This document shows, piece after piece, positions 9,156-28,789 of a stretch of 64,000 nt of DNA. The first letter of the stretch is position 1. Each line of letters begins with the position of its first letter. This DNA comes from Rhizobium sp. RU20A (GTDB taxonomy: Bacteria; Pseudomonadota; Alphaproteobacteria; Rhizobiales; Rhizobiaceae), in NCBI RefSeq assembly GCF_900155885.1, contig NZ_FTMB01000008.1:62001-126000 (forward strand), given 5' to 3'. The notes below the pieces were generated by a model. The model was not told the DNA's origin and ran no database searches. It worked only from the letters and a program-made list of their open reading frames with translations. Both the position numbers and the translations under genes were made by a program.

Positions 9156-10160
9156 ATGAGCAATGAATTTCTGGGTGGCGTGAACCGCCGCAATCTCCTG
9201 AAGCTGACCGCCGCGGTGGGCGCGGTCGCGGGCGCTGGGCTTTTCTCGAGCGGTCCGTCCTTTGCTGCGGAAGAGCTTTCGCTCAAGGGCAAGCGCATCG
9301 GCATCAGCACAGCGGGCACCGACCACTTCTTCGACCTTCAGGCCTACAACGCCCAGATCGAGGAGGTGAAGCGCCTCGGGGGCGAGCCGATCGCGGTCGA
9401 CGCCGGCCGCAATGACGGCAAGCTCGTTTCGCAACTGCAGACCCTCATCGCACAGAAGCCCGATGCGATCGTCCAGTTGCTCGGCACGGTCAGCGTCATC
9501 GATCCCTGGCTGAAGAAGGCGCGCGATGCCGGCATTCCGGTGTTGACCATCGACGTCGGCACGACCAATTCGGTCAACAATTCCACCTCGGACAACTGGG
9601 CTATCGGCAAGGATCTCGCGCTGCAGCTCGTGTCCGACATCGGCGGCGAAGGCAATATCGTCGTCTTCAACGGCTTCTACGGGGTGACGCCCTGCGCCAT
9701 CCGCTACGATCAGCTCGTCAATGTCATCAAGTATTTCCCGAAAGTGCAGATCATTCAGCCGGAACTGCGCGACGTCATCCCCAACACGGTCCAGGATGCC
9801 TTCACCCAGATCACGGCGATCCTCAACAAGTATCCGGAGAAGGGCTCCATCAAGGCGATTTGGGCCGCCTGGGATGTTCCGCAGCTCGGCGCTACCCAGG
9901 CGCTGACGGCCGCCGGACGTACCGAGATCAAGACTTATGGCGTCGATGGCAGCCCGGAAGTCCTGCAACTGGTCGCGGATCCGAACTCGCCCGCTGCCGC
10001 CGACGTGGCCCAGCAGCCGGCCGAACTCGGCCGCACCGCCATCCGCAACGTTGCCAAGCTTCTGGCCGGCGGCACCCTGCCGCGCGAAACCTACGTGCCG
10101 GCGCTGCTCGCCAACAAGGAAAATGTCGGGGAGATTTCCAAGAAGCTTGGGCTCGGCTGA
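9156..10160 (+). CDS. CUT2/Rbs-type periplasmic substrate-binding protein, Tat-exported
   Basis: The 334-residue protein starts with an apparent twin-arginine signal, NRRNLLKLTAAVGAVAGAG, and then a Peripla_BP_4-type fold: KGKRIGISTAGTDHFFD, the core IAQKPDAIVQLLG, and AIWAAWDVPQLGATQAL. It captures a ligand in the periplasm for the importer encoded next. The ATG at 9156 is preferred because GGAGG at 9146-9150 gives five-base spacing. It is followed by a strong hairpin and then the ATPase and two permeases. The family usually binds sugars, but the operon ends in an SfnB-type oxygenase, so a sulfur-bearing sugar or similar compound is a reasonable guess (inference). Confidence 0.82.
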   Translation: MSNEFLGGVNRRNLLKLTAAVGAVAGAGLFSSGPSFAAEELSLKGKRIGISTAGTDHFFDLQAYNAQIEEVKRLGGEPIAVDAGRNDGKLVSQLQTLIAQKPDAIVQLLGTVSVIDPWLKKARDAGIPVLTIDVGTTNSVNNSTSDNWAIGKDLALQLVSDIGGEGNIVVFNGFYGVTPCAIRYDQLVNVIKYFPKVQIIQPELRDVIPNTVQDAFTQITAILNKYPEKGSIKAIWAAWDVPQLGATQALTAAGRTEIKTYGVDGSPEVLQLVADPNSPAAADVAQQPAELGRTAIRNVAKLLAGGTLPRETYVPALLANKENVGEISKKLGLG

Positions 10161-10176
10161 TTGCCGGAACCACTGC

Positions 10177-10198
10177 GCCGCGGCCTGATGGCCGCGGC
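10177..10198 (+). other. Intercistronic hairpin after binding-protein gene
   Basis: GCCGCGGCC-TGAT-GGCCGCGGC is a perfect nine-base stem with a four-base loop, 17 bases after the stop codon. With no T-run it is more likely an mRNA-stabilising or partial-attenuation hairpin, which would keep the binding protein more abundant than the membrane parts. Confidence 0.6.
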
Positions 10199-10231
10199 TT
10201 GCGCGCGTCCGACTTGAAGGGAATGGATGGG

Positions 10232-11773
10232 ATGGCGACGTCGGTTGTATGGAATGAGGCGGACGATATCATCCGCCTGAGCGATATCGTCAAAAGGTTC
10301 GGCGGTGCGCAGGCGCTCTCCGGCGCTTCGCTCGCCGTAAGGCGGGGCACGGTTCATGGCCTCGTCGGCCAGAACGGCGCGGGCAAGTCGACGCTGATCA
10401 AGCTCCTGGCCGGCCTGCATGCGGCGGACGAGGGCGTGATCGAAATCGATGGCACTGCCTATGCCAGCCTGTCGCCCCAGCAGGTCGAGCATCTCGGCAT
10501 CCATTTCATTCATCAGGACAGGCTGCTGGTGCCGACCTTCACCGTCGGCGAAGCGCTGTTCCTTGGCCGCGAACCGCGCATCCCGGGCACTCCCTTCCTC
10601 GATCGCAAGCGGATGCGGCAGACGTCAGCCGAGATTCTCGACCGCTACTTCGGTCTTCGCCTGCCGCATTCGGCCCTGATCGGCGAGCTGACGGCCGCGG
10701 AAAAGCAGATCGTCCAGATCACCCGCGCGCTGCTCGACAATCCGAAGATCCTGGTGTTCGACGAGCCGACCGCGGCCCTCGTGCGGCGGGAGGCCGAACT
10801 TCTGTTCACGCTCATCCGTCGCCTGCGCGACGAGGGCATCACCATCCTCTACATCTCCCATTACCTCAGCGAGATCGTCGATCTGTGCGACACGGTCACA
10901 GTGCTGCGCAATGGCCGCGATGTCGCGACACTTCCCGTCAAGAAAACCTCGGCCAAGGAAATCGGTGCGCTGATGGTCAATCGCGATATCGCCGAGCTCT
11001 ATCCGAAGCCGAAGGTCTTGCCCGGCCGCCCGTTTCTCGAACTCGATGGGCTCGGCCTTGCCAATCGATATGCCGATGTCTCGCTGACGCTCCACCGCGG
11101 CGAGGTGCTGGGCCTGACGGGTCTGGTCGGCTCCGGCGCGAAGGAGCTGCTGCGGACGCTTTTCGGCCTGGAAACGGCAACGGCCGGCACGGTGGCCATC
11201 GAAGGTGAGACGGTGTTTTCTGCAAGTCCCGCTGCCGCGACGGCCAAGCGCCTGGCACTGGTGCCGGAGGACCGGCGGCGGGATGGCGTGGCGCTCGATC
11301 TCACCGTCAGCGAAAACACGACGCTTGCGAGCCTCGACCGCTTTGGGCGCGCCGGCTTGCTCGACAAGGGCGCGGAAAAGCGCCAGGCCCGCGAGTTGAT
11401 CGAGCGGCTGCAGATCAAGACCGACAGTGCCGATGCGTTGGTGCGCACGCTCTCGGGCGGCAACCAGCAGAAGGTGGCGATCGCCAAATGGCTGAGCCGC
11501 CAGTCGGAAATCTATCTGCTCGACGAACCCTCCGTCGGCGTGGATATCGCGGCAAAGGTCGAGATCTACACGCTGATCGGCGAGCTTGCCGCGCGCGGCG
11601 CCGCCGTCATCGTGCTGTCCTCCGATATCGATGAACTGCTCGGCATCACTGATCGCGTGCTCGTCTTCTTCCGCGGCAGGATCACGCGGGAATTCATCTC
11701 GGCCGAAACATCCCCGGATCAGGTTCTTGCCGAACTGACCGGCGCCAACGAGACCCTTCGCCATGTCGGTTGA
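10232..11773 (+). CDS. CUT2/Rbs-type ABC ATPase with two nucleotide-binding domains
   Basis: The protein (513 residues from ATG 10232) has two fused ATPase domains. The first has Walker A GQNGAGKST and Walker B ILVFDEPTA. The second has a degenerate P-loop (GLVGSGAKELL), an intact LSGGNQQKVAIAKW signature and YLLDEPSVGVD. This pairing is normal for RbsA-type proteins. In the first domain the signature is unusual (GELTAAEKQIVQI). ATG 10232 is chosen because AAGGGA at 10217-10222 suits it; ATG 10223 is too close. It powers import with the two permeases downstream; its end overlaps the next gene by 11 bases. Confidence 0.88.
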   Translation: MATSVVWNEADDIIRLSDIVKRFGGAQALSGASLAVRRGTVHGLVGQNGAGKSTLIKLLAGLHAADEGVIEIDGTAYASLSPQQVEHLGIHFIHQDRLLVPTFTVGEALFLGREPRIPGTPFLDRKRMRQTSAEILDRYFGLRLPHSALIGELTAAEKQIVQITRALLDNPKILVFDEPTAALVRREAELLFTLIRRLRDEGITILYISHYLSEIVDLCDTVTVLRNGRDVATLPVKKTSAKEIGALMVNRDIAELYPKPKVLPGRPFLELDGLGLANRYADVSLTLHRGEVLGLTGLVGSGAKELLRTLFGLETATAGTVAIEGETVFSASPAAATAKRLALVPEDRRRDGVALDLTVSENTTLASLDRFGRAGLLDKGAEKRQARELIERLQIKTDSADALVRTLSGGNQQKVAIAKWLSRQSEIYLLDEPSVGVDIAAKVEIYTLIGELAARGAAVIVLSSDIDELLGITDRVLVFFRGRITREFISAETSPDQVLAELTGANETLRHVG

Positions 11774-12812
11774 TGCTGCCCATCTCTCCACTGCGCTGTC
11801 TGCTCCCGTCCGACATGAAACGGGCGCGACAAAAACTGCGACTGGCGCCTTTGGACGCAGGCTCGCCGTGCTGGCCCTGCGCCAGGGTTCGATGGCGGTG
11901 TTCATCGGCGTGCTCGTCTATTTCTCCATCGCCGCGCCCTACTTCTTCACCGTTGGCAACATCGGCAATGTGCTCGGGCAGTCGGCCATCGCCGGCGTCC
12001 TGGCGATCGGGCTGACGATCGTGATCATCGCTGGCGGCTCCAATGTGGTAACGGGCGGCATCGATCTGTCGCTGGCGGCCAATATGGGTCTGAGCGCGGC
12101 CGTCTATGCCTCGCTCTTGCAGGCCGGGCAGGGGGATGCTGTCGCCATCATCGGTGCCCTCGGCACGGGGCTTGTCATCGGCGCGATCAATGCGGCGGCA
12201 ATCACGCTCGCCGGCATCGTGCCGCTGCTGGCGACGCTGGCGGTGATGAATGTCGTCGCAGGCCTCGAACTGGTGCTGACCCAGAACACCGTCGTTCCCG
12301 CATCGAGCGACTTCCTCTCCGCCGTCTCGGCAAGCGGCCCCTTCGGCATTCCGGTGCTGGCCTATGTGCTGCTCGGCTTCGCGGCGCTCGTGGCAGCCCT
12401 GGTGCAGTATACGCCGCTTGGCCTACGCCTTTATGCCGTCGGCGAGTTTCCCGAAGCGGCGCGGGCGGCAGGGCTTCGCGTCAAGCTCTTCATTTCCGGC
12501 GCCTTTCTGGCGAGTGGCCTGTGCGGCGGCTTCGCGGGCATTCTCTCCGTTTCCTATCTCAGCGGCAGCACGACCGGAGCGGGCGACATGCTCCTGCCAG
12601 TCGTGGTGACTGCGCTCCTGGGCACTGTCTTTTCCCGCCGTCTGGTGCCGACCATCGGCGGCACGCTGCTCGCGACCCTCTTCGTCTCGTCTCTCATCAA
12701 CGGCTTCCAGCTTCTCAACATCTCCAGCACGCTGGTGAGCGGGGTTCAGGGTCTGCTGATCCTGCTGGTCGTTTCCGCCACCACGCTTCTGCAACGCAAG
12801 GGAAACCAGTGA
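11763..12812 (+). CDS. CUT2/Rbs-type ABC permease, first subunit
   Basis: The 349-residue membrane protein has about ten hydrophobic segments. It carries the RbsC-family patch GGIDLSLAANMGLSAAVYA and the permease loop GLRLYAVGEFPEAARAAGLRV, which contacts the ATPase. It starts inside the ATPase gene and ends with TGA overlapping the ATG of the second permease. Two different permease genes imply a heterodimeric channel. Residues 1-40 form a cytoplasmic Ser/Thr/Ala-rich tail. Confidence 0.88.
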   Translation: MSVDAAHLSTALSAPVRHETGATKTATGAFGRRLAVLALRQGSMAVFIGVLVYFSIAAPYFFTVGNIGNVLGQSAIAGVLAIGLTIVIIAGGSNVVTGGIDLSLAANMGLSAAVYASLLQAGQGDAVAIIGALGTGLVIGAINAAAITLAGIVPLLATLAVMNVVAGLELVLTQNTVVPASSDFLSAVSASGPFGIPVLAYVLLGFAALVAALVQYTPLGLRLYAVGEFPEAARAAGLRVKLFISGAFLASGLCGGFAGILSVSYLSGSTTGAGDMLLPVVVTALLGTVFSRRLVPTIGGTLLATLFVSSLINGFQLLNISSTLVSGVQGLLILLVVSATTLLQRKGNQ

Positions 12813-13795
12813 TGGCCAGCAACGCGTCTTCTGCCTCTTCCTCCCTGCGCGGGCTGGCGCGCTACGCTCTGGTCGCTGCGTTCGTGGTCGTCTTCGCGAT
12901 CTTTTCCGCCATCGCGCCCGCCTTTCTCAGCGGCGCCAATCTCTTAAGCGTGCTGGTCAACAATTTCGCCCTGCTCGCCATCGTCGCCATTGCCATGACC
13001 TTTGCGGTCGCGGCCGGCGGTATCGATCTGTCTGTCGGCACGGCCATCGATTTTGCCAGCTTCGCCTTCGTGTCGCTGGTGCTTGCCGGCCAGCCGATCC
13101 CGCTGGCAATCCTCGGTGGCCTCGCGGGCGGCACGCTCGTCGGGGTCTTCAACGCCCTTTTGATTTCGGGCATCGGCATTTCCCCGTTTCTTGCGACGCT
13201 TGGCACGCTCTTCGTCGGGCGCAGCGCCCAGCAGTTACTCACCAACGGCGGAAACCCGGTCTATCTGCCACCATCGGGCGTGCCGGAAGCCTTCCGCTTC
13301 CTTGGTCACGGCACGTTGGCAGGCATTCCGGTTCCGCTGGTTCTTGCCTTCGCGGTGATCCTCGGCACCTATCTGATCCTATCGCACACCCGCTTCGGCC
13401 GGGTGGTGCTGGCAACGGGTATCCAGGCCAGCGTCGTGCGCTATTCCGGCATCGCACTGTCGCGCTATACGGCGCTGACTTACGTGCTGGTCTCGGCGAT
13501 CGCCGCCATTGTCGGGCTGATCGTGACATCGACGGTGACTGTCTACATTCCCTCCTCCGGCAATGCCTTCCTGCTGAATGCCATCGGTGCGACCTTCATC
13601 GGCACGACGCTCGACCCGCACGGCCGACCGAACATTCCCGGCACGGTTCTGGGCGTTCTGCTTCTGAGCATCGTCGCAAACGGACTGCTGTTGTCGGGGC
13701 TCAATTTCTATTGGCAGCAGGTCGCCACGGGTCTCCTGATCTTCTTCGTCCTGGCCATCGGTTTTGCCAATCGCAAGGCCGCGTCGCGGGCCTGA
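12812..13795 (+). CDS. CUT2/Rbs-type ABC permease, second subunit
   Basis: The 327-residue permease is homologous to the preceding gene. It has AGGIDLSVGTAIDFASFAFVS, the membrane pattern of RbsC proteins, and an ATPase-contact region around TRFGRVVLATGIQASVVRYSGI. Its start overlaps the stop of the first permease (TGATG). It completes the four-part importer. A SfnB-type oxygenase gene follows only 25 bases later and is probably in the same transcript. Confidence 0.88.
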   Translation: MASNASSASSSLRGLARYALVAAFVVVFAIFSAIAPAFLSGANLLSVLVNNFALLAIVAIAMTFAVAAGGIDLSVGTAIDFASFAFVSLVLAGQPIPLAILGGLAGGTLVGVFNALLISGIGISPFLATLGTLFVGRSAQQLLTNGGNPVYLPPSGVPEAFRFLGHGTLAGIPVPLVLAFAVILGTYLILSHTRFGRVVLATGIQASVVRYSGIALSRYTALTYVLVSAIAAIVGLIVTSTVTVYIPSSGNAFLLNAIGATFIGTTLDPHGRPNIPGTVLGVLLLSIVANGLLLSGLNFYWQQVATGLLIFFVLAIGFANRKAASRA

Positions 13796-13820
13796 GCCTT
13801 CCCTTTCGAAAGGACATGTC

Positions 13821-15035
13821 ATGAGCAGTGTCACCAAAATCGCGGAGCATCGCGGCTCCGCCCATCGCATCGCCAGCGAAGAGGAAGCGTTGTCGATCGC
13901 AAGGCATCTCGCCGGCGAATTTTCGAGCGGTGCCAGCCGCCGCGATCTGGAACGGGCGCTGCCCTACGAGGAGCTGGAAAAACTCTCCGCCTCCGGCCTC
14001 CTTGGCATTACCGTGCCGTCCGAATATGGCGGCATCGACGTTTCGAATGCGGTGCTCGCGGAAGTCACGGCCATCCTTTCGGAGGCTGACAGCTCGATCG
14101 GCCAGATTCCGCAGAACCATTTCTATATTCTCGAAGCGCTGCGCCACGATGGCAGCGAGGACCAGAAGCACTTCTATTTCAGCCGCGCGCTGGCCGGCGA
14201 CCAGTTCGGCAATGCGCTGTCGGAAACCGGCACGAAGACCGTCGGCCATTACCATACCCGCATCACGGCAGATGGCGCCGGCTACCGCATCAACGGTCGT
14301 AAATTCTATTCGACAGGCGTTCTCTTTGCCCACTGGGTCGTTATCTTTGCGCTGGATGACAACGACTTGCTGACCATGTCTTTCGTGCCGAAGGGGACCG
14401 AGGGCATCGAGATTGTCGATGACTGGGACGGCTTTGGCCAGCGCACCACGGGCAGCGGCTCCACGATCCTCACGGATGTCTTCGTGACGGCCGATGCGGT
14501 CGTGCACCATCACAAGGGTTTCGAGCGGCCGACGACGATCGGCTCGGTCGGGCAGATCATCCATGCCGGCGTCGATCTCGGCATTGCCCGGGCCGCGCTG
14601 AAGGAAACCATCGGCTTCGTACGCGAGCGTGCACGACCCTGGACCGATAGCGGCGTGGAGCGCGCCGCCGATGATCCGCTGACGATTGCGCGCATCGGCG
14701 AAATTGCCATCAGCATCGAGGCGGCAGAGGCGACCGTGGAGCGCGCTGGCCGCAAGGTCGATCTGGCCCAGATCACGCCGACCGAGACCAACACCGTCGC
14801 GGCATCACTTGCGGTGGCCGCCGCCAAGGTGCTGACGACGGAAGTCGCGCTCGACGCGACCAATATCCTCTTCGAACTCGCCGGCACGGCGTCGACCAAG
14901 CGCGGCTTCAACCTCGAGCGCCACTGGCGCAATGCCCGCACCCACACCCTGCATGATCCCGTGCGCTGGAAATACCACGTCGTCGGCAACTACCACCTGA
15001 ACGGCGTCATTCCGCCCCGCAGCGGCGCTCTCTGA
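13821..15035 (+). CDS. SfnB/DszC-type flavin oxygenase (acyl-CoA dehydrogenase fold)
   Basis: The 404-residue protein matches the SfnB 'sulfur acquisition oxidoreductase' group. It shows SEYGG-type N-terminal region, GQIPQNHFYILEALR (94-108), RKFYSTGVLFAHWV (160-173, the strand facing FMN), EIVDDWDGFGQRTTGSGST, and the C-terminal block RHWRNARTHTLHDPVRWKYHVVGNYHLNG. Members use reduced FMN and oxygen to oxidise organosulfur compounds such as sulfones; the substrate here is unknown. The ATG at 13821 has GAAAGGA at 13808-13813. It closes the operon of the first Rbs-type importer, which suggests that it acts on the imported compound. Confidence 0.85.
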   Translation: MSSVTKIAEHRGSAHRIASEEEALSIARHLAGEFSSGASRRDLERALPYEELEKLSASGLLGITVPSEYGGIDVSNAVLAEVTAILSEADSSIGQIPQNHFYILEALRHDGSEDQKHFYFSRALAGDQFGNALSETGTKTVGHYHTRITADGAGYRINGRKFYSTGVLFAHWVVIFALDDNDLLTMSFVPKGTEGIEIVDDWDGFGQRTTGSGSTILTDVFVTADAVVHHHKGFERPTTIGSVGQIIHAGVDLGIARAALKETIGFVRERARPWTDSGVERAADDPLTIARIGEIAISIEAAEATVERAGRKVDLAQITPTETNTVAASLAVAAAKVLTTEVALDATNILFELAGTASTKRGFNLERHWRNARTHTLHDPVRWKYHVVGNYHLNGVIPPRSGAL

Positions 15036-15061
15036 TCTCTCATCCGATTGGGTGCAGTTGG

Positions 15062-15092
15062 GCCGTGATCCCCTGAGACCACGGCTCTTTTT
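15062..15092 (+). terminator. Rho-independent terminator after SfnB-type gene
   Basis: GCCGTG and CACGGC form a six-base stem separated by 12 bases and are followed by TCTTTTT at 15086-15092. It lies 27 bases after the stop codon at 15035, in the right place to end the importer-oxygenase operon. Confidence 0.65.
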
Positions 15093-15103
15093 CGTGCACC
15101 AAA

Positions 15104-15127: not shown

Positions 15128-15162
15128 GTGAGTCTTAACGGGCAGGCGAGGCCCGGCGAAGG

Positions 15163-16389
15163 TCAGCTGTAGAGGCTCGGTTCCGGTACGCGTCCGTTCA
15201 GGGCAAAATCCCCGACTTCGCGCGCTTTGTAGAACACCGGATCATGGAGCGTGTGGGTGCGCACATTGCGCCAGTAGCGATCGAAGCGGTAGTGGGATGC
15301 GGTTGCCCGCGCGCCCATCAGCTCGAAAACACGCGACGTGACGTCGAGCGAGACATGGGTGGCATTGACCTTGGCCGTATAGGCTTCGATCGCCGCCTCG
15401 CCACGCTCGCGCTCGGTGACATTGCGCCCGCGCGAAAGCGCCGCCTGCACGGCGTGCGCCGCAGCATCGGCAAGCGCCGCCGACGCCTTGAGCGTTGCGC
15501 GGAACTCCCCGATCCGCTCCAGAATATACGGATCTTCGCTGGCCGTCGCGACACCTGAGGTCACCCAGGGTCGCGTCGTGGTGCGCACATAGTCGGTTGC
15601 CGCCGAAAGCGCGCCCTCCGCCGTGCCGATGTAGAAGTTCACGAAGACCAGCTGGATCAGCGGTGTATTGAAGGTCGCCAGCACCGTGGGTGCCGCACCC
15701 TTCTCGACCAGCGGGAACAGGAAATCGCTCTCGTAGACGACGTAGTCCTTGAACTCGACGCTGCCGCTGTCGGACAGCCGCTGGCCGATATTGTCCCAAT
15801 CGTCATAGGCGATGTAGCCCGCGCGATCGGTCGGCAGCACGAGGTTGGCGACCTGGTTCCTATAGGCGGCATTGGCGTTGATGCGGTCGGAAACATGCGC
15901 GCCGGTGGAGAAGGTCTTGCGGCCGTTGAGAAGGTATTGATCGCCGCGTTTCGTGAGCGTCAGTCCCGGATCGCGCGGATTGACGGCGGCTCCCCAGTAG
16001 AGGGATTTCTGCACGGTCTCGACGCCGAGATCATGGGCCTTCTGCGACTCGGACACGGCCCAGTAGGGATACTGGCTGTTGACATAGTGATAGCCGAGCA
16101 ACTGGCCGATCGAGCTTTCGCCGCGCGCCAGGATGCGCACCAACCGGAGCCCATCGATCCAATCGAGCCCGCCGCCGCCGATCTCGGTCGGGTGAAGTGC
16201 GGTCAGCAGGCCCGCAGCCTTCAATGTCGTGATGTCCTCGAGCGGTGGCCTGCCTTCGGCATCGAGTTTGGCGCCGCGGCGGACAAGATCGGCGGAAATC
16301 GCCGCTGCCCTGGCAAACAGGTCCTCCCGCTGGCTCGTTGGCTGGGTTGGGGATTGGTCGCGCTCCTTGAGCAGATGCAAGGCGGTCAT
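15163..16389 (-). CDS. DszC/SfnC-type flavin oxygenase (acyl-CoA dehydrogenase fold)
   Basis: The 408-residue protein has GLLTALHPTEIGGGGLDW, GQLLGYHYVNSQY, GRKTFSTGAHVSD (the F-S-T-G strand equivalent to Y-S-T-G in SfnB proteins), YIAYDDWDNIGQRLSDSGSVEF and the C-terminal RYWRNVRTHTLHDPVFYKAREVGDFALNG. It is closer to DszC/SfnC than to the SfnB paralogues nearby. ATG 16389 has AGGAGT five bases upstream. It probably oxidises a sulfide, thiophene or sulfone using reduced FMN. It follows a binding-protein gene on the same strand, 142 bases downstream of it, and may be co-transcribed. Confidence 0.83.
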   Translation of the reverse strand: MTALHLLKERDQSPTQPTSQREDLFARAAAISADLVRRGAKLDAEGRPPLEDITTLKAAGLLTALHPTEIGGGGLDWIDGLRLVRILARGESSIGQLLGYHYVNSQYPYWAVSESQKAHDLGVETVQKSLYWGAAVNPRDPGLTLTKRGDQYLLNGRKTFSTGAHVSDRINANAAYRNQVANLVLPTDRAGYIAYDDWDNIGQRLSDSGSVEFKDYVVYESDFLFPLVEKGAAPTVLATFNTPLIQLVFVNFYIGTAEGALSAATDYVRTTTRPWVTSGVATASEDPYILERIGEFRATLKASAALADAAAHAVQAALSRGRNVTERERGEAAIEAYTAKVNATHVSLDVTSRVFELMGARATASHYRFDRYWRNVRTHTLHDPVFYKAREVGDFALNGRVPEPSLYS

Positions 16390-16531: not shown

Positions 16532-17578
16532 TCAGAACAGTTTTGCCGGGATCCAGTCGGCGGTGACAGCATCGCTGTCGCTGAAGGCCGGAACCTTGGC
16601 CGCCAGTTCCTCGATCGTCTTGACACCGGCTTCGCGAAGCGCCGTCTGGGTCAGGAGCGCCGGCTTGACAAGCACCTGCGCCGGGACATCCTGACCGGCG
16701 ATCTTCAGCGCCACGGCACGGATCGAGACAGCGCCGACGACGGCGGGGTTGGTCGCAACGGTCGCCACCCACGGACTGCCGTCCTCGGTGATTTCCTGAA
16801 TATCGGCGGTCGAGACGTCGGCCGAATAGATCTTCAGCCTGTCGGAAATGCCGAGATCGGCCGCCGCAAGCTTCACGCCACGGGCGAATTCATCATAGGG
16901 TGCGAAAATGACGCTGATATCGGGGTTCGCGGTCAGCACGGCCTTGGCCTGGTCGGCCGTACTGGTCGCGGTCGTGTCGTTGACCGCGCCGAAGCGCGCC
17001 TTTTCGACGACACCCTTGTTCTCCGCCTTGAACTTTTCCCAGACCTCGTTGCGCCGGTCGAGCGGGGCAAAGCCGGCGACATAGACATAGCCGGCGTTGA
17101 ACGCGGTGCCGTTGTCCTTGACCACCTGCTCCAGCGCGAGGCGGGAAAGCTCATGGTCGCTCTGTTCCACCTGCGGAATGGCGGGGTTGTTGAGATTGAC
17201 GTCGAAGGCGACGACCTTGATGCCGGCATCCAGCGCCTGCTGGGCGACATCCGTCAGGGATTCCGGCTGGCCGTGATCGATGACGATGCCCTGAACGCCG
17301 AGATTGATCGCCTGCTGAATCTGGTCGCGCTGCTCGGCGGCGTTCTGCCGGCCGGGGAAGACGCGCAGGTCGATGCCGAGCGCCTTGGCCTGGGCTTCGG
17401 CGCCGGCCTGGTAGGCTTGGAAGAAATCGCCGGCGGAAATATAGGAGATCAGTGCCACCTTGACGCCGCCCTTGTCGAACGGGGCAGGCGCGCCCGCAAG
17501 GCCTTCGGCCTGCGCGGCGCCAAAGAGAGTGAAGGTGACCACCGTCGCGGCCATGAATGTCTTGATCGCCTGTCGCAT
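16532..17578 (-). CDS. CUT2/Rbs-type periplasmic substrate-binding protein
   Basis: The 348-residue protein has a clear Sec signal (ATVVTFTLFGAAQA, cleavage near residue 25). The Peripla_BP_4 fold follows: VKVALISYISAGDFFQAYQ, GVQGIVIDHGQPESL, and VIFAPYDEFARGVKLAA. It is the likely partner of the permease and ATPase encoded 2-4 kb away on the same strand (19473-21991). The intervening plus-strand monooxygenase gene appears to be inserted between them. The DszC-type gene follows directly. A palindromic motif copy lies 71 bases upstream of the start. Confidence 0.82.
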   Translation of the reverse strand: MRQAIKTFMAATVVTFTLFGAAQAEGLAGAPAPFDKGGVKVALISYISAGDFFQAYQAGAEAQAKALGIDLRVFPGRQNAAEQRDQIQQAINLGVQGIVIDHGQPESLTDVAQQALDAGIKVVAFDVNLNNPAIPQVEQSDHELSRLALEQVVKDNGTAFNAGYVYVAGFAPLDRRNEVWEKFKAENKGVVEKARFGAVNDTTATSTADQAKAVLTANPDISVIFAPYDEFARGVKLAAADLGISDRLKIYSADVSTADIQEITEDGSPWVATVATNPAVVGAVSIRAVALKIAGQDVPAQVLVKPALLTQTALREAGVKTIEELAAKVPAFSDSDAVTADWIPAKLF

Positions 17579-19367: not shown

Positions 19368-19375
19368 CAGGTCCC

Positions 19376-19472: not shown

Positions 19473-20501
19473 TCAGGCTTTGCGGGCAATGCCGTAGGTC
19501 AGCGCCAGCGCCCCGACCAGCACGGCGCCCTTGACGAAATCCTGGGTGTAGTAGGGGGCGTTCAGCATGGTCAGCCCGTTCAGCAGCACGCCCACGAAGA
19601 CCGCTCCGACGAGCGTGCCCAGGACGTTCGGTCGGCGAAGGCCGAGCACGGCATAGCCGATCAGGGAGGCCGCGACGGCATCCATCAGCAACGAGCCGCC
19701 GGAGGAAACGTCACCGCGCCCGACGCGCGCGGCAACCACGATCCCGCCGAGCGACGCGAGGGTCCCCGAGATCACATAGGCCAGCGTTTTCAACCTGTCG
19801 GTCGGCCCACCGGCGAGCCGCGTCGCCAGCTCATTGCCACCGGTCGCAAACAGGAGCCGCCCGATGCGCGTGCGCTCCGTCAGCACGTAAAGCGCAATCG
19901 CAACGACAGCCATCAGGATCACCGGCAGCGGCACGATGCCGAAGAGGCTGGAGCGGCCGATGGTGAGAAACGCCGGATCGTATTTCCCCGTCGCCGTCGC
20001 GCCATCGGGCAGGATCAGCCCCGGCGAGATCGAGCGTCCGGCGGTGGGGATCAGCTGCAGGCCTGTCAGCAGGAACATCATGGCCAGCGTCGCGAGCAGA
20101 TCCGGAACCTTGAGGCGGACGATGAGCAGCGCATTGAGCAGCCCGATCACCGCCCCCAGCGCCAGGACCAGCGCGACGGTTTCGGCCGTACCGAGGCCCC
20201 AGACGATCATGGCATAGCTTGCCGCCATGACGCTCGAGGCGGCCACCGCCCCGATCGACAGATCGAAGCCGCCGACGGCAAGCGTGACGGTGACGCCCAC
20301 GCCAAGGATCGCGACGACGGAGACCGCCTGCAGGATGCTCATTAGATTGTTGAGGTTGATGAAGGCCGGCTCGGCAAGCGAGAAGCCGATCATCAGCGCA
20401 GCGAGCAGAATGAACACCGCGCCGGATCGCAGGATATCGCGGATACCGTCGCCGGTCCTTGCCGGTGTTCCGGCGGCAGGCGTGTTGTCTTGGGCTGTCA
20501 T
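19473..20501 (-). CDS. CUT2/Rbs-type ABC permease
   Basis: The 342-residue membrane protein has the RbsC-family pattern: LAVGGFDLSIGAVAASSVMAA, IVRLKVPDLLATLAMMFLLTG, and a cytoplasmic loop TRIGRLLFATGGNELATRLAGG. It is probably a homodimeric channel, since only one permease gene is present. Its start overlaps the end of the ATPase gene by four bases (ATGA). It should work with the binding protein at 16532. Confidence 0.87.
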   Translation of the reverse strand: MTAQDNTPAAGTPARTGDGIRDILRSGAVFILLAALMIGFSLAEPAFINLNNLMSILQAVSVVAILGVGVTVTLAVGGFDLSIGAVAASSVMAASYAMIVWGLGTAETVALVLALGAVIGLLNALLIVRLKVPDLLATLAMMFLLTGLQLIPTAGRSISPGLILPDGATATGKYDPAFLTIGRSSLFGIVPLPVILMAVVAIALYVLTERTRIGRLLFATGGNELATRLAGGPTDRLKTLAYVISGTLASLGGIVVAARVGRGDVSSGGSLLMDAVAASLIGYAVLGLRRPNVLGTLVGAVFVGVLLNGLTMLNAPYYTQDFVKGAVLVGALALTYGIARKA

Positions 20502-21991
20502 TGGGTGGTTTCCCTGCTGCGCACTGGCGACGCATTGCCATCGCGGTGGCTGTGGAGAATGGTGTGGTGGTCCATGGTCACAACGCGGTCCGCGACCTCA
20601 TAGGCCTCTTCCGGATCGGACGTTGCGATCAGCGTGGCGCGGTCGTCGCGGCTGCGAATGGCGGCGATGATGTCGTGGCGGGCGCCGACATCGACGCCCT
20701 GGAACGGCTCGTCGAGAAGCAAAAGCCTGCCGGGCTCGGCCTCCCAGCGCGCGAGAACCACCTTCTGCTGATTGCCGCCGGACAGCGTCCAGACGGACGC
20801 ATCCGGTCCGGAGGCCCGAATGCCGAGTCGCCTGATCGCGGCCTTGGCCTTTTCCCGCTCCAGCCGCGGCCGGATCAGGCCGGCCGGGTTCCAGCGGGTG
20901 AGATGCGGGAGGCTGATGGTCGCGGCGATTTCTTCCCCGGGCCATCCCGCCGGCATCAGCGATGAGCGATGCCGATCCTCGCCCGCCATGAAGACACCGG
21001 CATCCACGGCGTCCCGCGGGCTCGAGGGCGTATAGGCCTCTCCGCCCAGCCGCATGATGCCGCCTGCCAGAACGCCGTTTCCAAAGATCGCGCAGAGCAG
21101 CCGGCTTTTGCCGGCGCCGAGAACGCCGGTGATTGCCAGCACCTCGCCCCGATGCACTGTGAGATCGAACGGATCGCTGCCGGGCAGAAGTCTTGCGCCG
21201 GAAAGCTCGAGCATGGGCTCGCCGCCTGCGGCCCGCGCATCGGGGCGCGCAGAGGCAAGCGGCCTGCCGATCATCGTCTCGATGGCCTGGTCGAAGTTCA
21301 CCGGACGGGCAAAGGTTTCGACCAGCCGTCCGCCGCGCAGCACCGCCACGCGATCGGCCAGGGCTTCGAGGTCGGCCGTGCGGTGGGAGATATAGAGAAT
21401 GGCGATGCCGCGGTTCTTCAGGTCGAGCAGCGTCTGGTAGAGCCTGCGGGATTCGGTGGCCGAAAGGCTGGCCGTCGGCTCGTCAAGGATCAGCAGTTCC
21501 GCCCGGTTGGCAAGCCCGCGGGCAATCGCTACCAGCTGCCGCTCGGCGGCGGACAGCGCGGCAAAATCCCTGTCGACGGGAAGGTCGAAGCCAGCGTCCC
21601 GCAGCATCGCCTGCGCTTCGCGCCTAACCCGCGCTCGGGAGACGAAGAAGGGCTGGCTGCGATCGACAAACCGGTTGAGCAGAAGCGCATCACCGACGCT
21701 GAGGCCGGGAATGCCGACGAGATCGGTCGACTGATGAACGGTCACGACCCCGGCTGTGTTCGCCTCGGCGGGGGTCGCGGGGGCATAGGTCCGGCCCTTG
21801 AATGTCAGGCCGCCGCCGTCTGCGGCGAGCACGCCTGAGATGATCTTGACGAAGGTCGATTTTCCCGCGCCGTTTGCCCCCATCAGCGCAACGATCTCGC
21901 CGGGCTCGATGGAGAAACTGAAATCCGCAAGCGCCCGGGTCGATCCGAAGGACCGGCTGAGAGACTTGGCTTGAAGGAGGGGCATGGGCAT
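20498..21991 (-). CDS. CUT2/Rbs-type ABC ATPase with two nucleotide-binding domains
   Basis: Two ATPase domains are fused in 497 residues. The first has GANGAGKSTF, an atypical signature (ALSAAERQLVAIARGLA) and LLILDEPTASL. The second has GVLGAGKSRLL, LSGGNQQKVVLARW and LLLDEPFQGVD. This is the RbsA architecture. ATG 21991 gives MPMPLLQAKSL; the open frame continues upstream, but those residues are not family-like. No strong ribosome binding site is visible. A motif copy lies 83-95 bases upstream. Together with the overlapping permease gene it forms the second Rbs-type importer. Confidence 0.85.
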   Translation of the reverse strand: MPMPLLQAKSLSRSFGSTRALADFSFSIEPGEIVALMGANGAGKSTFVKIISGVLAADGGGLTFKGRTYAPATPAEANTAGVVTVHQSTDLVGIPGLSVGDALLLNRFVDRSQPFFVSRARVRREAQAMLRDAGFDLPVDRDFAALSAAERQLVAIARGLANRAELLILDEPTASLSATESRRLYQTLLDLKNRGIAILYISHRTADLEALADRVAVLRGGRLVETFARPVNFDQAIETMIGRPLASARPDARAAGGEPMLELSGARLLPGSDPFDLTVHRGEVLAITGVLGAGKSRLLCAIFGNGVLAGGIMRLGGEAYTPSSPRDAVDAGVFMAGEDRHRSSLMPAGWPGEEIAATISLPHLTRWNPAGLIRPRLEREKAKAAIRRLGIRASGPDASVWTLSGGNQQKVVLARWEAEPGRLLLLDEPFQGVDVGARHDIIAAIRSRDDRATLIATSDPEEAYEVADRVVTMDHHTILHSHRDGNASPVRSRETTQ

Positions 21992-22230: not shown

Positions 22231-23022
22231 ATGACACTGAAAGCGCTTTTCTCTGCCCTCCTGATTGCCATTGCCGGGCCGGCCGCGGCCGAAACCGTGA
22301 AGATCGGCGTCGTGCCGGGGGTCTATGGCGATTCCGTCGAGGCCCTTGTCCCGGAGGCGAAGGCGGCCGGGATTGACTTGCAGGTCATCGAATTCAGCGA
22401 CTGGACGACGCCGAACGAGGCGCTGCAGGCCGGCGATCTCGACCTCAACTACTTCCAGCATGTGCCCTTCCTCACCAATGCGATCAAGCAGAAGGGGTAT
22501 ACCATCGTTCCGATCGGTGTCGGCACGCTTGCCAATATCGGCATCTACTCCCTGAAGCATAAGGATTTCGCCAGCGTTCCGGACGGTGCGACGGTGGCGA
22601 TCGCCAATGACCCGGTCAACCAGGGGCGCGGCCTGCTACTGCTCGAAAAGGGTGGCCTGATCAAGCTGAAGGACGGCGTCGGCTATCTCGGCACGCTGGA
22701 CGATATCGTTGAGAACCCGAAGAACGTGACCTTCAGCGAAGTGGAAGGCCCGCAGCTTGCCCGCGTGACCGGCGATGTCGATCTGGCGCTCGGCTATCCC
22801 CACTTCATCATTGCGGCCAAGACCTTCGATCCCGGCTCGGCCCTGATCTATTCCGGCATCGATGACAAGCAGTTCGCCATCGTTTTTGCCGCCAATGCCG
22901 CGAAGGCCGACAATCCGGCGCTGAAGAAGGTGGTCGAACTCTACCAGTCCTCCAAGGCCGTGCGCGAAGCGATCGATACCGGCTTTGCCCGCAATCCGAA
23001 GCTCTACACGATCGCGTGGTGA
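22231..23022 (+). CDS. metQ: MetQ/NlpA-type substrate-binding protein
   Basis: The 263-residue protein has a Sec signal ([18 protein letters not shown]) and a full NlpA fold: [69 protein letters not shown] and [16 protein letters not shown]. MetQ proteins bind methionine. The sequence is a divergent paralogue of the second MetQ in this window, and the operon continues with two SfnB oxygenases and a DszA monooxygenase, so a methionine-like organosulfur compound is more likely than methionine itself (inference). The stop overlaps the metN start region. No lipobox Cys is visible. Confidence 0.82.
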
Positions 23023-23024
23023 CC

Positions 23025-24206
23025 ATGAGCCTCGCTTTTCTGGGTGGAGCAGACCACCCGATCTCCGAAACCGGCGCGGTAGCGCGTCATCATGCGAAAT
23101 CAGAGAGGCGCCCAGGCGCCGCGTCAAATGCCGGGCTCTCCAGCACTCACGTGACGCCGGCGGCCGGGTCCGTGCGCTTCGAGGGTGTCGAGAAGGTCTA
23201 TACATCCTCGGCGGGCCGCGTCGAGGCGCTGAAGGATATCAGCATCGACATTCCCGCTGGCGCGATCTTCGGCATCATCGGCCGCTCCGGTGCGGGCAAG
23301 TCGAGCCTGCTGCGCACCATCAACCGGCTGGAGCGGCCCACCGCCGGCCGGATGCTGGTCGATGGCCAGGATATCGCGGCCTATGGCGAGGATGAACTCG
23401 TCGCGCTCCGGCGCCGCGTCGGCATGATCTTCCAGCATTTCAATCTGCTCTCGGCCAAGACCGTGTTCGGCAATGTCGCCCTGCCGCTTCTGGTGGCGGG
23501 CGTCGGTGCGGCCGAAATCGAGGCGCGGGTGGCGGAGGTGCTGAAGCTCGTCGGCCTCGAGGGCAAGGAGACCACTTATCCGTCCCGACTTTCCGGCGGC
23601 CAGAAGCAGCGTGTCGGCATTGCCCGGGCGCTCGTCAGTCGCCCGGAAATCCTGCTCTGCGACGAGGCGACATCCGCGCTCGATCCGGAAACGACGCTGT
23701 CCATCCTGTCGCTGCTGAAGGACATCAATCGTCGCCTCGGCCTTACCATCGTGCTTATCACCCACGAGATGAGCGTCATTCGCGAGATCTGCGACGAGGT
23801 GCTGGTGCTCGAGGCTGGCCGCATCGCTGAGACAGGTCCCGTCTGGAAGGTCTTCGGCAATCCCCGGCATGATGCGACGCAGGCGCTGCTTGCGCCGCTG
23901 ACGCGCGGCTTGCCAGAGGAGATCGCCAGCCGCATGACGCCAAACCCGGTGGATGACGCGTCGCTCGCCATCATCGAATTCGCCTATACGGGCGAGGGCG
24001 GGCGCGAACCCGATCTTGCCCGGCTCGTGGCGCTGCTCGGGCCAGAAGCACGCATCGTTCAAAGCCAGCTCGACCGCATCGACGGCCACCTCAGCGGCCG
24101 CCTGATCGTCTCGGCGCCGGCATCAGGCGATCTGCCGTCCCGTCTTTCCGGCCAGGATCTGGTCAATGCCGCAAGGATCATCGGTTATGTCCCCGCAAAT
24201 GCTTGA
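23025..24206 (+). CDS. metN: MetN-type ABC ATPase
   Basis: The protein is about 393 residues from ATG 23025 (GTG 23016 is an alternative overlapping metQ). It has Walker [11 protein letters not shown]-loop [14 protein letters not shown], signature [15 protein letters not shown], Walker [16 protein letters not shown] and H-switch ITHEMSV, all typical of MetN. The C-terminal 90 residues form the NIL ligand-sensing domain that in MetN inhibits transport when the ligand is abundant. An N-terminal extension of about 50 residues ([12 protein letters not shown]) is unusual. It overlaps metI by 20 bases. Confidence 0.88.
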
Positions 24207-24840
24207 CCGCCTCTGGCAGGCCTTTCTCGACACGCTGACCATGGTCGGCGTTTCCGCCGTGATCGCGCTCTTCGTCGGCGTGCCGCTGGCCGTGTTCCTC
24301 GTCCTGTCCTCGCCCGGCGGCCTCATTCACGCGCCGCGCACCAACCGGGTGCTCGGTGCCGTCATCAACGGCTTTCGCGCCGCGCCATTCATCGTGCTCC
24401 TCGTGGCGCTCCTGCCCTTCACGCGGCTGGTCACGGGGACAACGATCGGTGTCTGGGCCGCCATCGTGCCGCTGTCGATCAGCGCCACGCCGTTTCTGGC
24501 CCGCATCGCCGAGGTCAGCCTGCGCGAGGTGGAGCATGGGCTGATCGAGGCGGCGCAGGCCATCGGTTGCCGGCGCTGGCACATCATCCGCCATGTGCTG
24601 CTGCCCGAAGCACTGCCCGGCCTCGTCGGCGGCTTCACGATCACGATCGTGTCGATGATCGGCGCTTCCGCCATGGCTGGTGCCGTGGGCGCCGGCGGGC
24701 TCGGCGACATGGCGATCCGCTATGGCTACCAGCGTTTCGACACCACGGTGATGCTCGCGGTTCTCGCCGTCCTGATCGCCACCGTCTGCCTCGTCCAGTT
24801 CATCGGCGATACCGCCGTGCGGCGCCTGCGCGCCCGCTGA
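24187..24840 (+). CDS. metI: MetI-type ABC permease
   Basis: The 217-residue permease has about five membrane spans and the EAA loop region [37 protein letters not shown], plus the MetI hallmark [30 protein letters not shown] 24187 is favoured because GCAAGGA lies nine bases upstream; an in-frame ATG at 24166 is possible. It completes the first MetQNI importer. The SfnB-type gene follows 32 bases later. Confidence 0.88.
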
Positions 24841-24872
24841 AGCTCTTCCATGCCTCGCACCGAGATCACGTC

Positions 24873-26117: not shown

Positions 26118-26120
26118 GCG

Positions 26121-27380
26121 ATGACGATCCACAATCCCGCCCCGTCCGTGCCTGCGCAGCCCGTGCTTGCCCAGCCGGCGGCTTTGCCAGAGGCTGTTCC
26201 GTACCGCATCGCCTCCGATGCCGAGGCGATCACTGTCGCCGAGGCCTTCGCCGAGACGCTGCGGGCCGGCGCGTCAAAACGCGATGCCGAGCGCCAGCTT
26301 CCCTTCGATGAACTGGATGCCTTCGTGGCCACAGGGCTCTGGGGCATCAGCGTGCCAAAGGCCTATGGCGGCGCTGGCGTTTCGGCCGGCACGCTCGCCC
26401 GCGTCACCGCGATCATTGCCGCAGCCGACGGTTCGCTGTCGCAGATTCCGCAGAACCATTATTATTCGCTGGAGGTGCTGCGCGTCGGCGGCAGCGAGGC
26501 GCAGAAGCGGTTCTTCTATGATCGCGTGCTGGCCGGCGAACGGACGGGCAATGCGCTGGCGGAAATCGGGCACAAGGATTTCAAGCGCCGCACCCGGCTT
26601 TATCGCGAGGGCAGCGGCTGGCGTGTCGATGGCACCAAATATTACTGCACCGGCGCCATCTACGCCCACTGGATCCCGACGCTCGTCTCGGTGGAAGAGG
26701 CTTCGGGCGCAAGAACGTATATCGTCTTCATCCCGCGCAGCGCGCCGGGCGTCAGCATCATCGATGACTGGGACGGTTTCGGCCAGCGGGTGACGGGCAG
26801 CGGCACGGTGCGCTTCGATGCCGTCTCCATCGAGCCGGAATGGATCGTGCCGTTCCAATCGTCTTTCGAACGGGCAACGACCATTGGCCCGGTCGCGCAG
26901 ATTATACACGCCGCCATCGATCTCGGCATTGGCGAGGGCGCCTATCGCGATATGCTCGCCTTCGTGCGCAGCCGGGCACGGCCGTGGATCGACGCAAAGG
27001 TCGAGACGGCGGCGGAGGATCCGCTGACGCTTAGCGAAATCGGCAAGGTGCGGGTGCGCCTGAGAGCAGCCGATGCGCTGTTGCGCAAGGCGGGCGAACG
27101 CGTCGATGCGGCGATGGCGAACCCGACCGAAGACACGGTCGCGGCCGCCTCCATCGCGGTTGCCGAGGCGAAGATCCTCTCCACGAAGGCCGGGCTTCTC
27201 GCGGCCAACAAGCTCTTCGAGCTCTCGGGCACCTCCGCCACCATGGTCGAGGACAATTACGACCGGCACTGGCGCAATGTACGCACGCACACGCTGCATG
27301 ATCCCGTCCGGTGGAAATACCAGGCGGTCGGCCAGTATCATCTCAATGGCCGGCGTCCGCCGCGCCACGGCGCGATCTGA
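26121..27380 (+). CDS. SfnB-type flavin oxygenase
   Basis: The 419-residue SfnB paralogue starts three bases after the previous gene. Key segments are VPKAYGGAGVSAGTLA, SQIPQNHYYSLEVLRVGG, TKYYCTGAIYAHWIPTLVSV (Y-C-T-G instead of Y-S-T-G), VSIIDDWDGFGQRVTGSGTV and RHWRNVRTHTLHDPVRWKYQAVGQYHLNG. The Ser-to-Cys change in the FMN-side strand is a small oddity that could alter substrate or oxygen chemistry. Two tandem SfnB paralogues suggest either different substrates or a hetero-oligomer. Confidence 0.85.
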   Translation: MTIHNPAPSVPAQPVLAQPAALPEAVPYRIASDAEAITVAEAFAETLRAGASKRDAERQLPFDELDAFVATGLWGISVPKAYGGAGVSAGTLARVTAIIAAADGSLSQIPQNHYYSLEVLRVGGSEAQKRFFYDRVLAGERTGNALAEIGHKDFKRRTRLYREGSGWRVDGTKYYCTGAIYAHWIPTLVSVEEASGARTYIVFIPRSAPGVSIIDDWDGFGQRVTGSGTVRFDAVSIEPEWIVPFQSSFERATTIGPVAQIIHAAIDLGIGEGAYRDMLAFVRSRARPWIDAKVETAAEDPLTLSEIGKVRVRLRAADALLRKAGERVDAAMANPTEDTVAAASIAVAEAKILSTKAGLLAANKLFELSGTSATMVEDNYDRHWRNVRTHTLHDPVRWKYQAVGQYHLNGRRPPRHGAI

Positions 27381-27415
27381 GCGCGTCCGCACGTCCCGAA
27401 AGATCGAGATCAGGC

Positions 27416-28789
27416 ATGTCCCAGAGAAAACAGATCCTTCTCAACGCCTTCAGCATGAACTGCGTCGGCCATATCAATCACGGGCTGTGGACGCATCCGC
27501 GTGATCGCTCCGCAGACTATCGCCGGCTCTCCTACTGGACGGAGCTGGCCCGGACGCTGGAGCGCGGCCTGTTCGACGGCATCTTCCTCGCCGACATCAT
27601 CGGGGTCTACGACATCTATCAGGGATCGGTGGACCTGACGCTGAAGGAAACGATCCAGCTCCCGGTCAATGATCCGATCCTGCTGATCTCGGCCATGGCG
27701 GCGGCAACCCAACATCTCGGCTTCGGCGTCACCGTGAACACCAGCGTGGAGGCGCCCTATACCTTCGCGCGGCGCATGTCGACGCTTGATCACCTCACCG
27801 AGGGGCGCATCGGCTGGAACATCGTGACCGGCTATCTCGACAGCGCCGCCCGCGCGCTCGGGCAGTCCGGCCTTGGCGAGCACGACAACCGCTATGACCG
27901 GGCGGACGACTACCTCGACGTGCTCTACAAGCTCTGGGAGGCGAGCTGGGCGGAGGATGCGGTGCAGCGCGACAAGACTGCCCGCATGTTCGCCGACCCT
28001 GCCCGTGTTCGGGCGATCCAGCACGATGGCCCCTATTATCACAGCGAAGGCTATCATCTGGCCGAACCTTCCGCACAGCGCACGCCGGTGCTCTACCAGG
28101 CCGGCACCTCAGGCCGCGGCCGGAAGTTTGCGGCGCGGCACGGCGAGTGCATCTTCATCGGCGCTACCGACAAGGCCGCCGCCGCGCGCACGGCCAAGGC
28201 GCTGCGGGAGGCGTCGGTCGCGGCCGGTCGGGCGCCCGACGATATTAAGATCTTCGTCGGCATCACCGTCGTGCCGGGCCGCACGAATGCCGAGGCCGAG
28301 GAAAAGCTCGCCGACTACCTCGATCATGCCAGCCCCGAAGCGGGCCTTGCGCATTTTGCGGCCGGTAGCGGCATCGATTTTTCCCGCTTCGAGGCGGACG
28401 AGCCGATCGACTACGGCACAGGCAATGCCATCCAGTCCGTCAACCAGCTTGCCCGCCAGAAGGGCTGGACGAAACGCCAGCTTCTGAAGGAACTCGCCAT
28501 TGGCGGGCGCTATCCGCTTGTCGTCGGGGACGGTGCCAAGGTGGCCGAGGAGTTGATCGGCTGGATCGAGGAGGGAGGCATCGACGGCTTCAATCTCACC
28601 CGGACCGTGGTGCCGGAAAGCTATGTCGACTTCATCGACGTCGTCATTCCCGAACTGCAGGCCCGCGGCGCCTACAAGACCGCCTATACCGATGGAACGC
28701 TCCGCCACCGCCTGTTCGGCAACGGTGACCGCCTGCCCGACAACCACCCCGGAAGCCGGCAGGCACGCGAGCTGGCACGACGCTGGTAA
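27416..28789 (+). CDS. DszA/NtaA-type FMN-dependent monooxygenase
   Basis: The 457-residue luciferase-like protein has QILLNAFSMNCVGHINHGLW, FDGIFLADIIGVYDIYQGS, EAPYTFARRMSTLDHLTEGR, IGWNIVTGYLDSAAR and PVLYQAGTSGRGRKFAA. It is more distant from the pair at 17952 and 40070 than they are from each other. The role is likely C-S bond cleavage of a substrate oxidised by the SfnB enzymes or imported by the MetQNI-type system, using FMNH2. It is the last gene of the metQNI-sfnB-sfnB operon. Confidence 0.86.
   Translation: MSQRKQILLNAFSMNCVGHINHGLWTHPRDRSADYRRLSYWTELARTLERGLFDGIFLADIIGVYDIYQGSVDLTLKETIQLPVNDPILLISAMAAATQHLGFGVTVNTSVEAPYTFARRMSTLDHLTEGRIGWNIVTGYLDSAARALGQSGLGEHDNRYDRADDYLDVLYKLWEASWAEDAVQRDKTARMFADPARVRAIQHDGPYYHSEGYHLAEPSAQRTPVLYQAGTSGRGRKFAARHGECIFIGATDKAAAARTAKALREASVAAGRAPDDIKIFVGITVVPGRTNAEAEEKLADYLDHASPEAGLAHFAAGSGIDFSRFEADEPIDYGTGNAIQSVNQLARQKGWTKRQLLKELAIGGRYPLVVGDGAKVAEELIGWIEEGGIDGFNLTRTVVPESYVDFIDVVIPELQARGAYKTAYTDGTLRHRLFGNGDRLPDNHPGSRQARELARRW

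Follow-up and report, generated by a model that had tools for sequence, protein, structure and literature searches.

In the 64-kb window of Rhizobium sp. RU20A analysed here (contig NZ_FTMB01000008.1; all coordinates are window positions, the window being this whole stretch), two sugar-type importers of the CUT2 (RbsABC-type) class, designated A and B, are surrounded by flavin monooxygenases of the SfnB, DszC/MsuC-like and DmoA/NtaA types. Both lie in the left part of an organosulfur island of about 44 kb (9-53 kb), and no sugar kinase was identified among those genes of this interval that were profile-scanned or read by eye. Importer B belongs by sequence to the methylthioribose (MTR) importer family, an assignment that is new here. 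We consider it probable, on sequence grounds, that B imports MTR or a very close 5-alkylthio-pentose and A a related sulfur compound, with monooxygenases replacing the kinases and the ligands undergoing oxidative desulfurisation. The genes of the importers and the oxygenases joined to them are the following.

9156..10160, + strand: SBP-A, CUT2 substrate-binding protein (SBP) with a twin-arginine translocation (TAT) signal (Peripla_BP_4, 156.8 bits)
about 10223..11773, + strand: ATPase A, RbsA-type, with two ABC domains (ABC_tran in two stretches; start by reading)
11763..12812, + strand: permease A1 (BPD_transp_2, 75.2 bits)
about 12812..13795, + strand: permease A2 (BPD_transp_2, 105.2 bits)
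13821..15035, + strand: SfnB-A, group D flavin monooxygenase type (TIGR04022, 603.7 bits, cut-off 430.9)
15163..16389, - strand: DszC-B, DszC/MsuC-like monooxygenase (DszC model 277.3 bits, SfnB model 248.8 bits)
16532..17578, - strand: SBP-B, methylthioribose-type CUT2 binding protein (phmmer to 4ry8, E 1.9e-65)
17952..19367, + strand: LLM1, DmoA-type flavin mononucleotide monooxygenase (NtaA/DmoA model TIGR03860, 538.8 bits, cut-off 279.7)
19473..20501, - strand: permease B (BPD_transp_2, 126 bits)
about 20498..21991, - strand: ATPase B, with two ABC domains (ABC_tran in two stretches)

This layout agrees with the preliminary description of the DNA, which had reported two CUT2 importers with oxygenases instead of sugar kinases and an SfnB gene 25 bases past the permease of the first operon; SfnB-A starts exactly 25 bases after permease A2. 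It had also placed a DszA-type gene inside the second importer. The split is exact, with the divergent LLM1 between SBP-B and permease B, but the label has to be changed, since the best solved match of LLM1 is DmoA, ahead of LadA and DszA. The CUT2 assignment was based on Peripla_BP_4, a fused two-domain ATPase and BPD_transp_2, all found above the Pfam cut-offs in both importers. Neither binding protein passed the RbsB ribose-binding equivalog NF007936 (cut-off 337), the scores being 64.1 bits for SBP-A and 40.2 bits for SBP-B.

Among solved proteins SBP-B is closest to 4ry8 from Thermotoga lettingae, whose title reads "5-methylthioribose transporter solute binding protein TLET_1677" and which is presumably a complex with 5-methylthioribose. 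The predicted model of SBP-B (mean predicted local distance difference test score, pLDDT, 88.6) was superimposable on 4ry8 with a Z of 37.7 and a root mean square deviation (rmsd) of 3.9 over 315 residues at 36% identity, the next entry having a Z of 34.8. The common CUT2 fold therefore extends over nearly the full length of SBP-B.

The neighbourhoods of SBP-B relatives were counted as the genes within 9 kb of the SBP. The family was present in 25 of 199 genomes of the order and in 108 of 297 genomes of the taxonomic family (the host's own included in both; for the latter the best few candidates were scored per genome). A gap in identity appeared in the 297-genome search, with 19 places at 75% or above, including that of the window, and a further 98 at no more than about 60%. 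Flanks were fetched for 26 of the 27 places of the order search, L027 lying at a contig end, and the neighbourhoods of 31 of the 98 lower-identity places were seen (24 afresh, 4 as second SBPs on B regions and 3 earlier). Taking together both genome searches and plasmids, and leaving out L001, L121 (the same record as L106) and the window itself, SBPs of about 60% identity or less were close to mtnK in 42/50 cases, to mtnA in 40/50 and to oxygenases in 5/50, with kinase and oxygenase together in 0/50. For SBPs of at least 72% identity (score at least 530) oxygenases were found in 14/22, an mtnK-like kinase in 2/22 and both in 0/22. The family sample at 75% or above, own locus excluded, gave oxygenases in 13/18 and mtnK in 0/18, and where mtnK and mtnA occurred together such oxygenases were absent (0/40 loci). 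Annotated examples of mtnK and mtnA neighbours are Sinorhizobium meliloti pSymB and Shinella H4-D48, where ATPase, permease and SBP are of the same family; annotated oxygenase neighbours occur in R. leguminosarum, in R. johnstonii pRL9 and in Methylobacterium.

A scan of species genomes gave 571 candidates, and the best 80 of these (71-96% identity, Pararhizobium arenae being the nearest at 96%) are the named loci referred to below. SfnB, DszC or LLM genes were present at 66 of these 80, an MtnK-like kinase at 6, both at none and neither at 8. The same importer-oxygenase adjacency, which the preliminary description had proposed to look for in other genomes, is thus found at these 66 loci as well as in the 13/18 of the family sample. 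The six kinase loci belong to five Kaistia and one Bosea metagenome-assembled genome; three of the kinases were scanned and all passed the MTR-kinase cut-off of 275, with 461-471 bits. By best hit, DszC-B-type genes were present at 64 of the 80 loci, SfnB-A-type at 63 and LLM1-type at 54, and SBP-A was also found at 38. Fisher's exact test on the 80 loci gave p = 1e-5, which is no true probability because the loci are related.

At least six importers are encoded in the region, and it could be argued that transporters simply cluster in accessory DNA, adjacency having no functional link; the 8 loci without oxygenase and kinase would fit this. We regard such an explanation as very unlikely. The same genes come back together in different genera, with their order and strand varying, the same search returned oxygenases at 0/40 of the mtnK plus mtnA loci, and the neighbour labels cluster on the tree described next. 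Chance adjacency was rejected on this recurrence and on the 0/40, and the frequency of oxygenases near close relatives (13/18 and 66 of the best 80 of 571) against 0/40 places the association beyond chance.

In a quick tree of 103 sequences, 40 mtnK-linked SBPs formed one clade, with a Shimodaira-Hasegawa-like approximate likelihood ratio (SH-aLRT) support of 89. The neighbour labels required 15 changes on this tree against a mean of 42 after shuffling, a value as low being reached in 0/200 shuffles. The Kaistia/Bosea-type branch adjoins the mostly oxygenase-linked Rhizobiaceae. The tree was rooted on 4ry8 through a very long branch, so that the direction of the swap between kinase and oxygenases can only be inferred.

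Of the 12 positions that presumably contact ribose in RbsB, 11 could be compared, F164 not being alignable. The B clade was equal to the mtnK-linked clade at 10/11 positions at 59% overall consensus identity, and equal to the Kaistia/Bosea-type mtnK-linked branch at 11/11. For E. coli RbsB the agreement with the mtnK-linked clade was 5/11, and for the paralogue B2 it was 6/11 at 57% overall identity. With 4ry8 itself the B clade shares 8/11 positions (Gly, Phe, Phe, Asp, Asp, Arg, Asp and Thr), and differs at the remaining three by Leu for Val, Trp for Tyr and Val for Ala. The agreement with the mtnK-linked sequences (10/11 and 11/11) gives the best indication that oxygenase-linked proteins of the window's clade kept the MTR-type ligand. 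Some B operons have B2 as their second SBP (L107, L112, L115, L118, L151, L155, L217, L226). Its pocket is altered, Trp and Leu replacing two Phe and Trp replacing Tyr, which suggests a second ligand.

The ligand of B could also be a different sulfur-bearing sugar, such as a sulfo-sugar (for example sulfoquinovose), thioglucose or S-oxidised MTR. The oxygenases and SsuD of the island would be compatible with it, as would the position of RbsB N64, which is Asp in the B clade and Gln in the mtn clade, and the clearly changed pocket of B2. The other 10 of the 11 contacts are those of the mtnK-linked clade and all 11 those of the Kaistia/Bosea-type branch, and we consider a ligand of this kind unlikely.

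In the host genome (4.5 Mb, 99.79% complete) neither MtnK (TIGR01767) nor MtnA (TIGR00512) had a match, whereas the controls matched in 2 and 9 of 14 genomes, respectively. An mtnK sequence query had matches in 8/14 genomes, and the host was among the 6 silent ones. The canonical MTR salvage route is thus absent by these searches, and MTR entering the cell would therefore lack its canonical first steps. There was likewise no match to methylthioadenosine phosphorylase (MTAP) in the host genome, and the methylthioadenosine/S-adenosylhomocysteine nucleosidase gave a sub-cut-off match only. An MTR-like ligand for importer B is a well supported prediction, because 4ry8 is the nearest solved relative, the relatives are linked to mtnK and mtnA, the contact positions are nearly identical with those of the mtnK-linked clade and the host is without mtnK and mtnA.

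Importer A shows a swap similar to that of B, its kinase being replaced by oxygenases. Relatives of SBP-A at 64% identity or above had, within 9 kb, a ribokinase-like kinase in 0/73 cases and an oxygenase in 64/73, and those below 64% had the kinase in 15/18, a FucA-like aldolase in 14/18 and an oxygenase in 0/18. The kinase is PfkB-type, with scores under all equivalog cut-offs. These counts include the window itself, several genomes twice and loci fetched for their nearness to SBP-B; for distinct SBP-A proteins that were not fetched via SBP-B (own included), oxygenases were present in 18/25 at 64% or above and in 0/12 below. By sequence search the nearest solved relative of SBP-A is 4wt7 from Agrobacterium vitis (E 2.9e-176), and the top structural match of the predicted model was the same entry (Z 19.2, rmsd 5.1). 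No pocket was read from this model, because it was built from only 13 close sequences and its mean pLDDT was 62.9. The TAT_signal score of SBP-A, 22.0 bits, is slightly below the Pfam cut-off of 22.7, and the NCBIfam TAT model was above its cut-off. The ligand proposed for A is a sulfur compound related to that of B and similar to a sugar or polyol. Sulfur-bearing, sugar-like ligands, for example methylthioribose-like ones, had been suggested earlier for both importers: for B this gains the four lines of evidence given above, and for A it goes no further than the swap.

Several operons with SBP-A relatives (L079, L080, L141, L228-L231) contain a ribokinase-like kinase, a FucA-like aldolase and short-chain dehydrogenases/reductases and are catabolic operons; several of them have an aldehyde dehydrogenase and an acetoacetyl-CoA ligase nearby. 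In Klebsiella (L232) an SBP-A relative of 41% identity and a ribokinase-like kinase are located between mtnC/mtnD and mtnB. This adjacency was dropped as a clue to the ligand of SBP-A, as the S. meliloti mtnK and mtnA queries had no match there and it may be a coincidence.

The oxygenases were assigned by homology. SfnB-A has DszC and then MsuC as nearest solved proteins. DszC-B starts 142 bases downstream of the SBP-B stop codon; its scores are below the cut-offs of both DszC NF043015 (850) and SfnB TIGR04022 (430.9), and its nearest solved proteins are 8cda, DszC 4doy and MsuC 6u76. It may work like a DszC/MsuC-type enzyme. The residue evidence for monooxygenation is mixed: of the two His residues that we take to be catalytic in DszC, His391 is retained and His92 is replaced by Gln. 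LLM1 was identical to the dimethylsulfide monooxygenase DmoA (6ak1) in 224 of 461 aligned residues (49%, E 3.4e-155), so that it is better named DmoA-type than DszA-type, dimethylsulfide oxidation being putative by this homology.

To the right of importer B follow a methionine-type importer, MetQNI, then two SfnB genes and a second NtaA/DmoA-family gene. Beyond 28789 there are a serine hydrolase, FAD/NAD(P) proteins, a flavin reductase, SsuD and a second MetNIQ, and further right a third NtaA/DmoA-family gene, a LIV-type importer, SsuABC, CysE and another SfnB-like gene. The second MetN, LivF, SsuB and SsuC were identified by eye. The scanned genes among these are as follows.

22231..24840, + strand: MetQ-MetN-MetI methionine-type importer genes (MetI 217.5 bits, above its cut-off of 212; MetQ 164 and MetN 352 bits, top matches yet each below its own cut-off)
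24873-26117, + strand: SfnB gene (TIGR04022, 588.4 bits, above cut-off)
26121-27380, + strand: SfnB gene (TIGR04022, 597.8 bits, above cut-off)
27416-28789, + strand: second NtaA/DmoA-family monooxygenase (TIGR03860, 524 bits, above cut-off)
33037-33618, - strand: flavin reductase (Flavin_Reduct, 130.7 bits)
33615-34781, - strand: SsuD alkanesulfonate monooxygenase (TIGR03565, 579.9 bits, cut-off 518.2)

The gene at 40070 also passes TIGR03860 (531.5 bits, cut-off 279.7), and the SfnB-like gene at 51776-53005 fails TIGR04022 with 277.7 bits against the cut-off of 430.9.

Considering that MtnK also acts on 5-deoxyribose besides MTR, as stated in PMC10986504, the ligand of the SBP-B family may be free of sulfur. 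Both importers would then take up sulfur-free sugars as a carbon source (5-deoxyribose for B, a polyol or pentose for A), and the oxygenases would serve the substrates of the MetNIQ, Ssu and LIV-type importers, which are of other classes and lie next door in the island. It is also consistent with this that operon A is free of such oxygenases in 9/73 relatives (L072, L075, L077, L124, L127, L138, L139, L234, L235) and that 4wt7 presumably holds allitol. We hold sulfur-free ligands to be rather unlikely. Neither MtnK nor MtnA had a match in this host, so that the known first enzymes would be missing for an imported 5-deoxypentose; DszC-B-type and LLM1-type genes recur at the majority of the named loci; and mtnK and an oxygenase were found together near a family SBP at 0 of the best 80 of 571 loci and at 0/73 in the neighbourhood table.

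Besides the substrate range of MtnK, the oxygenase-free A operons and the Gln at the position of His92, other observations weigh against a thio-sugar ligand with oxygenases replacing kinases. SBP-B and 4ry8 are no more than 36% identical, and the neighbourhood counts lack phylogenetic independence. Operon A has no such oxygenases within 9 kb in Rhizobium leguminosarum-group plasmids (L124, L127, L234) and in Agrobacterium rubi (L235). Loss of MtnK is not a rule, because in the genomes G417, G475 and G511 an oxygenase-linked B system coexists with an mtnK-mtnA operon located elsewhere (L104/L123, L108/L084 and L107/L122). In the family sample at 75% or above, 5/18 loci have no oxygenases (L113, L114, L116, L117, L118), and 3/50 of the more distant SBPs are near neither mtnK nor oxygenase. 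Among the 8 named loci with neither, L203, L204 and L224 end at contig ends and L216 and L222 are surrounded by other carbohydrate genes. The pocket of the group L054, L056 and L057 is changed (6/11), and L054 and L056 are nevertheless oxygenase-linked. SBP-B relatives of still lower identity, from Rahnella (32%) and Bradyrhizobium (40%) and outside the family counts, have incomplete gene tables that name no mtnK, LLM or SfnB gene; the Bradyrhizobium one has a ribokinase about 6.6 kb away.

Other features were noted in and beside the island. At 40070-47909 the third NtaA/DmoA-family monooxygenase, 75% identical to LLM1, is located directly before the LIV-type importer, which has two Peripla_BP_6 binding proteins, so that another importer class is joined to an NtaA/DmoA-type enzyme. 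A protein of 325 aa (32091-33068) has a partial match to the SfnB model, 43.6 bits, and may be a truncated or diverged relative. The island also encodes, at 29786-31225 and 34945-36393, two proteins of the FAD/NAD(P)-binding family PF13454. At 58594-62499 there is a third CUT2 set (SBP, permease and single-domain ATPase) with a TIM-barrel sugar-isomerase-like gene, of ordinary sugar type by eye, and at 62552-63406, right of the island, an IS3-type transposase-like gene, also by eye.

For MTR imported by B, a route may be proposed from the enzyme families, by which sulfur would be removed oxidatively. MTR would be taken up through SBP-B, permease B and ATPase B, and its thioether sulfur would be oxidised by the DszC/MsuC/SfnB-type enzymes, which have the acyl-CoA dehydrogenase fold and form S-O bonds. 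LLM1, a TIM barrel, would cleave the C-S bond and free a one-carbon sulfur fragment, either methanethiol or, after S-oxidation, methanesulfinate; the two steps could occur in either order. The sulfinate or sulfonate could be converted to sulfite by MsuC/SfnB-type enzymes and SsuD, and the sulfite could enter cysteine synthesis, CysE being in the island. Reduced flavin would come from the flavin reductase at 33037. Regulation by sulfur is likewise expected of such a locus. PMC8234197 describes the TIM-barrel enzymes DmoA, CmoJ, BdsA and SsuD as cleaving C-S bonds and MsuC, of the acyl-CoA dehydrogenase fold, as forming S-O bonds; both families are present in the island together with the flavin reductase.

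By comparison with known systems, the parts are familiar, and CUT2 thio-sugar importers with two-component flavin monooxygenases replacing kinases would be a new combination of them. Importer B resembles the mtnK-mtnA MTR salvage operon of S. meliloti pSymB and Shinella in its ATPase, permease and SBP, but that operon has an MTR kinase and isomerase where B has flavin monooxygenases. LLM1 is like DmoA of the NtaA/DmoA family, and unlike it is linked to a sugar-type importer. The Pseudomonas sfn/msu system (SfnG, MsuC, MsuD) pairs S-O-forming and C-S-cleaving two-component monooxygenases, as the dsz 4S pathway likewise does, and SsuD is present here; those systems, however, act on dimethylsulfone or dibenzothiophene. 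The Bacillus ytm/yxe clusters for S-alkylcysteine join an importer to a luciferase-type monooxygenase for thioether sulfur, and LLM1 matches YtnJ (1yw1, E 8e-67), but ligands and importers are of amino-acid type there and B is of sugar type. Transporters for dimethylsulfone were yet to be characterised according to PMC8234197. No description of the importer-oxygenase pairing was found in the open-access papers searched, most subscription papers being outside the search.

MTR arises whenever methylthioadenosine is cleaved. According to PMC6302742 it is excreted by E. coli, and MTR transporters were studied in a supplement. If uptake and oxidative desulfurisation by soil bacteria are true, MTR would be used by a way that is neither methionine salvage nor the dihydroxyacetone phosphate (DHAP) shunt, and it would be a sulfur source in the rhizosphere for which the searched papers gave no description. 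More tentatively, and with less confidence than we place in the main reading, two separate importer families may each have lost a kinase and gained DszC/SfnB and DmoA enzymes, giving the Rhizobiaceae a kinase-free, O2-dependent, 4S-like route for MTR and related thio-sugars. Sulfur would by this route be won from by-products of S-adenosylmethionine metabolism that plants and microbes release. The swap could serve as a rule for reading genomes, in that a CUT2 importer adjoining SfnB/DmoA genes suggests a thio-sugar ligand.

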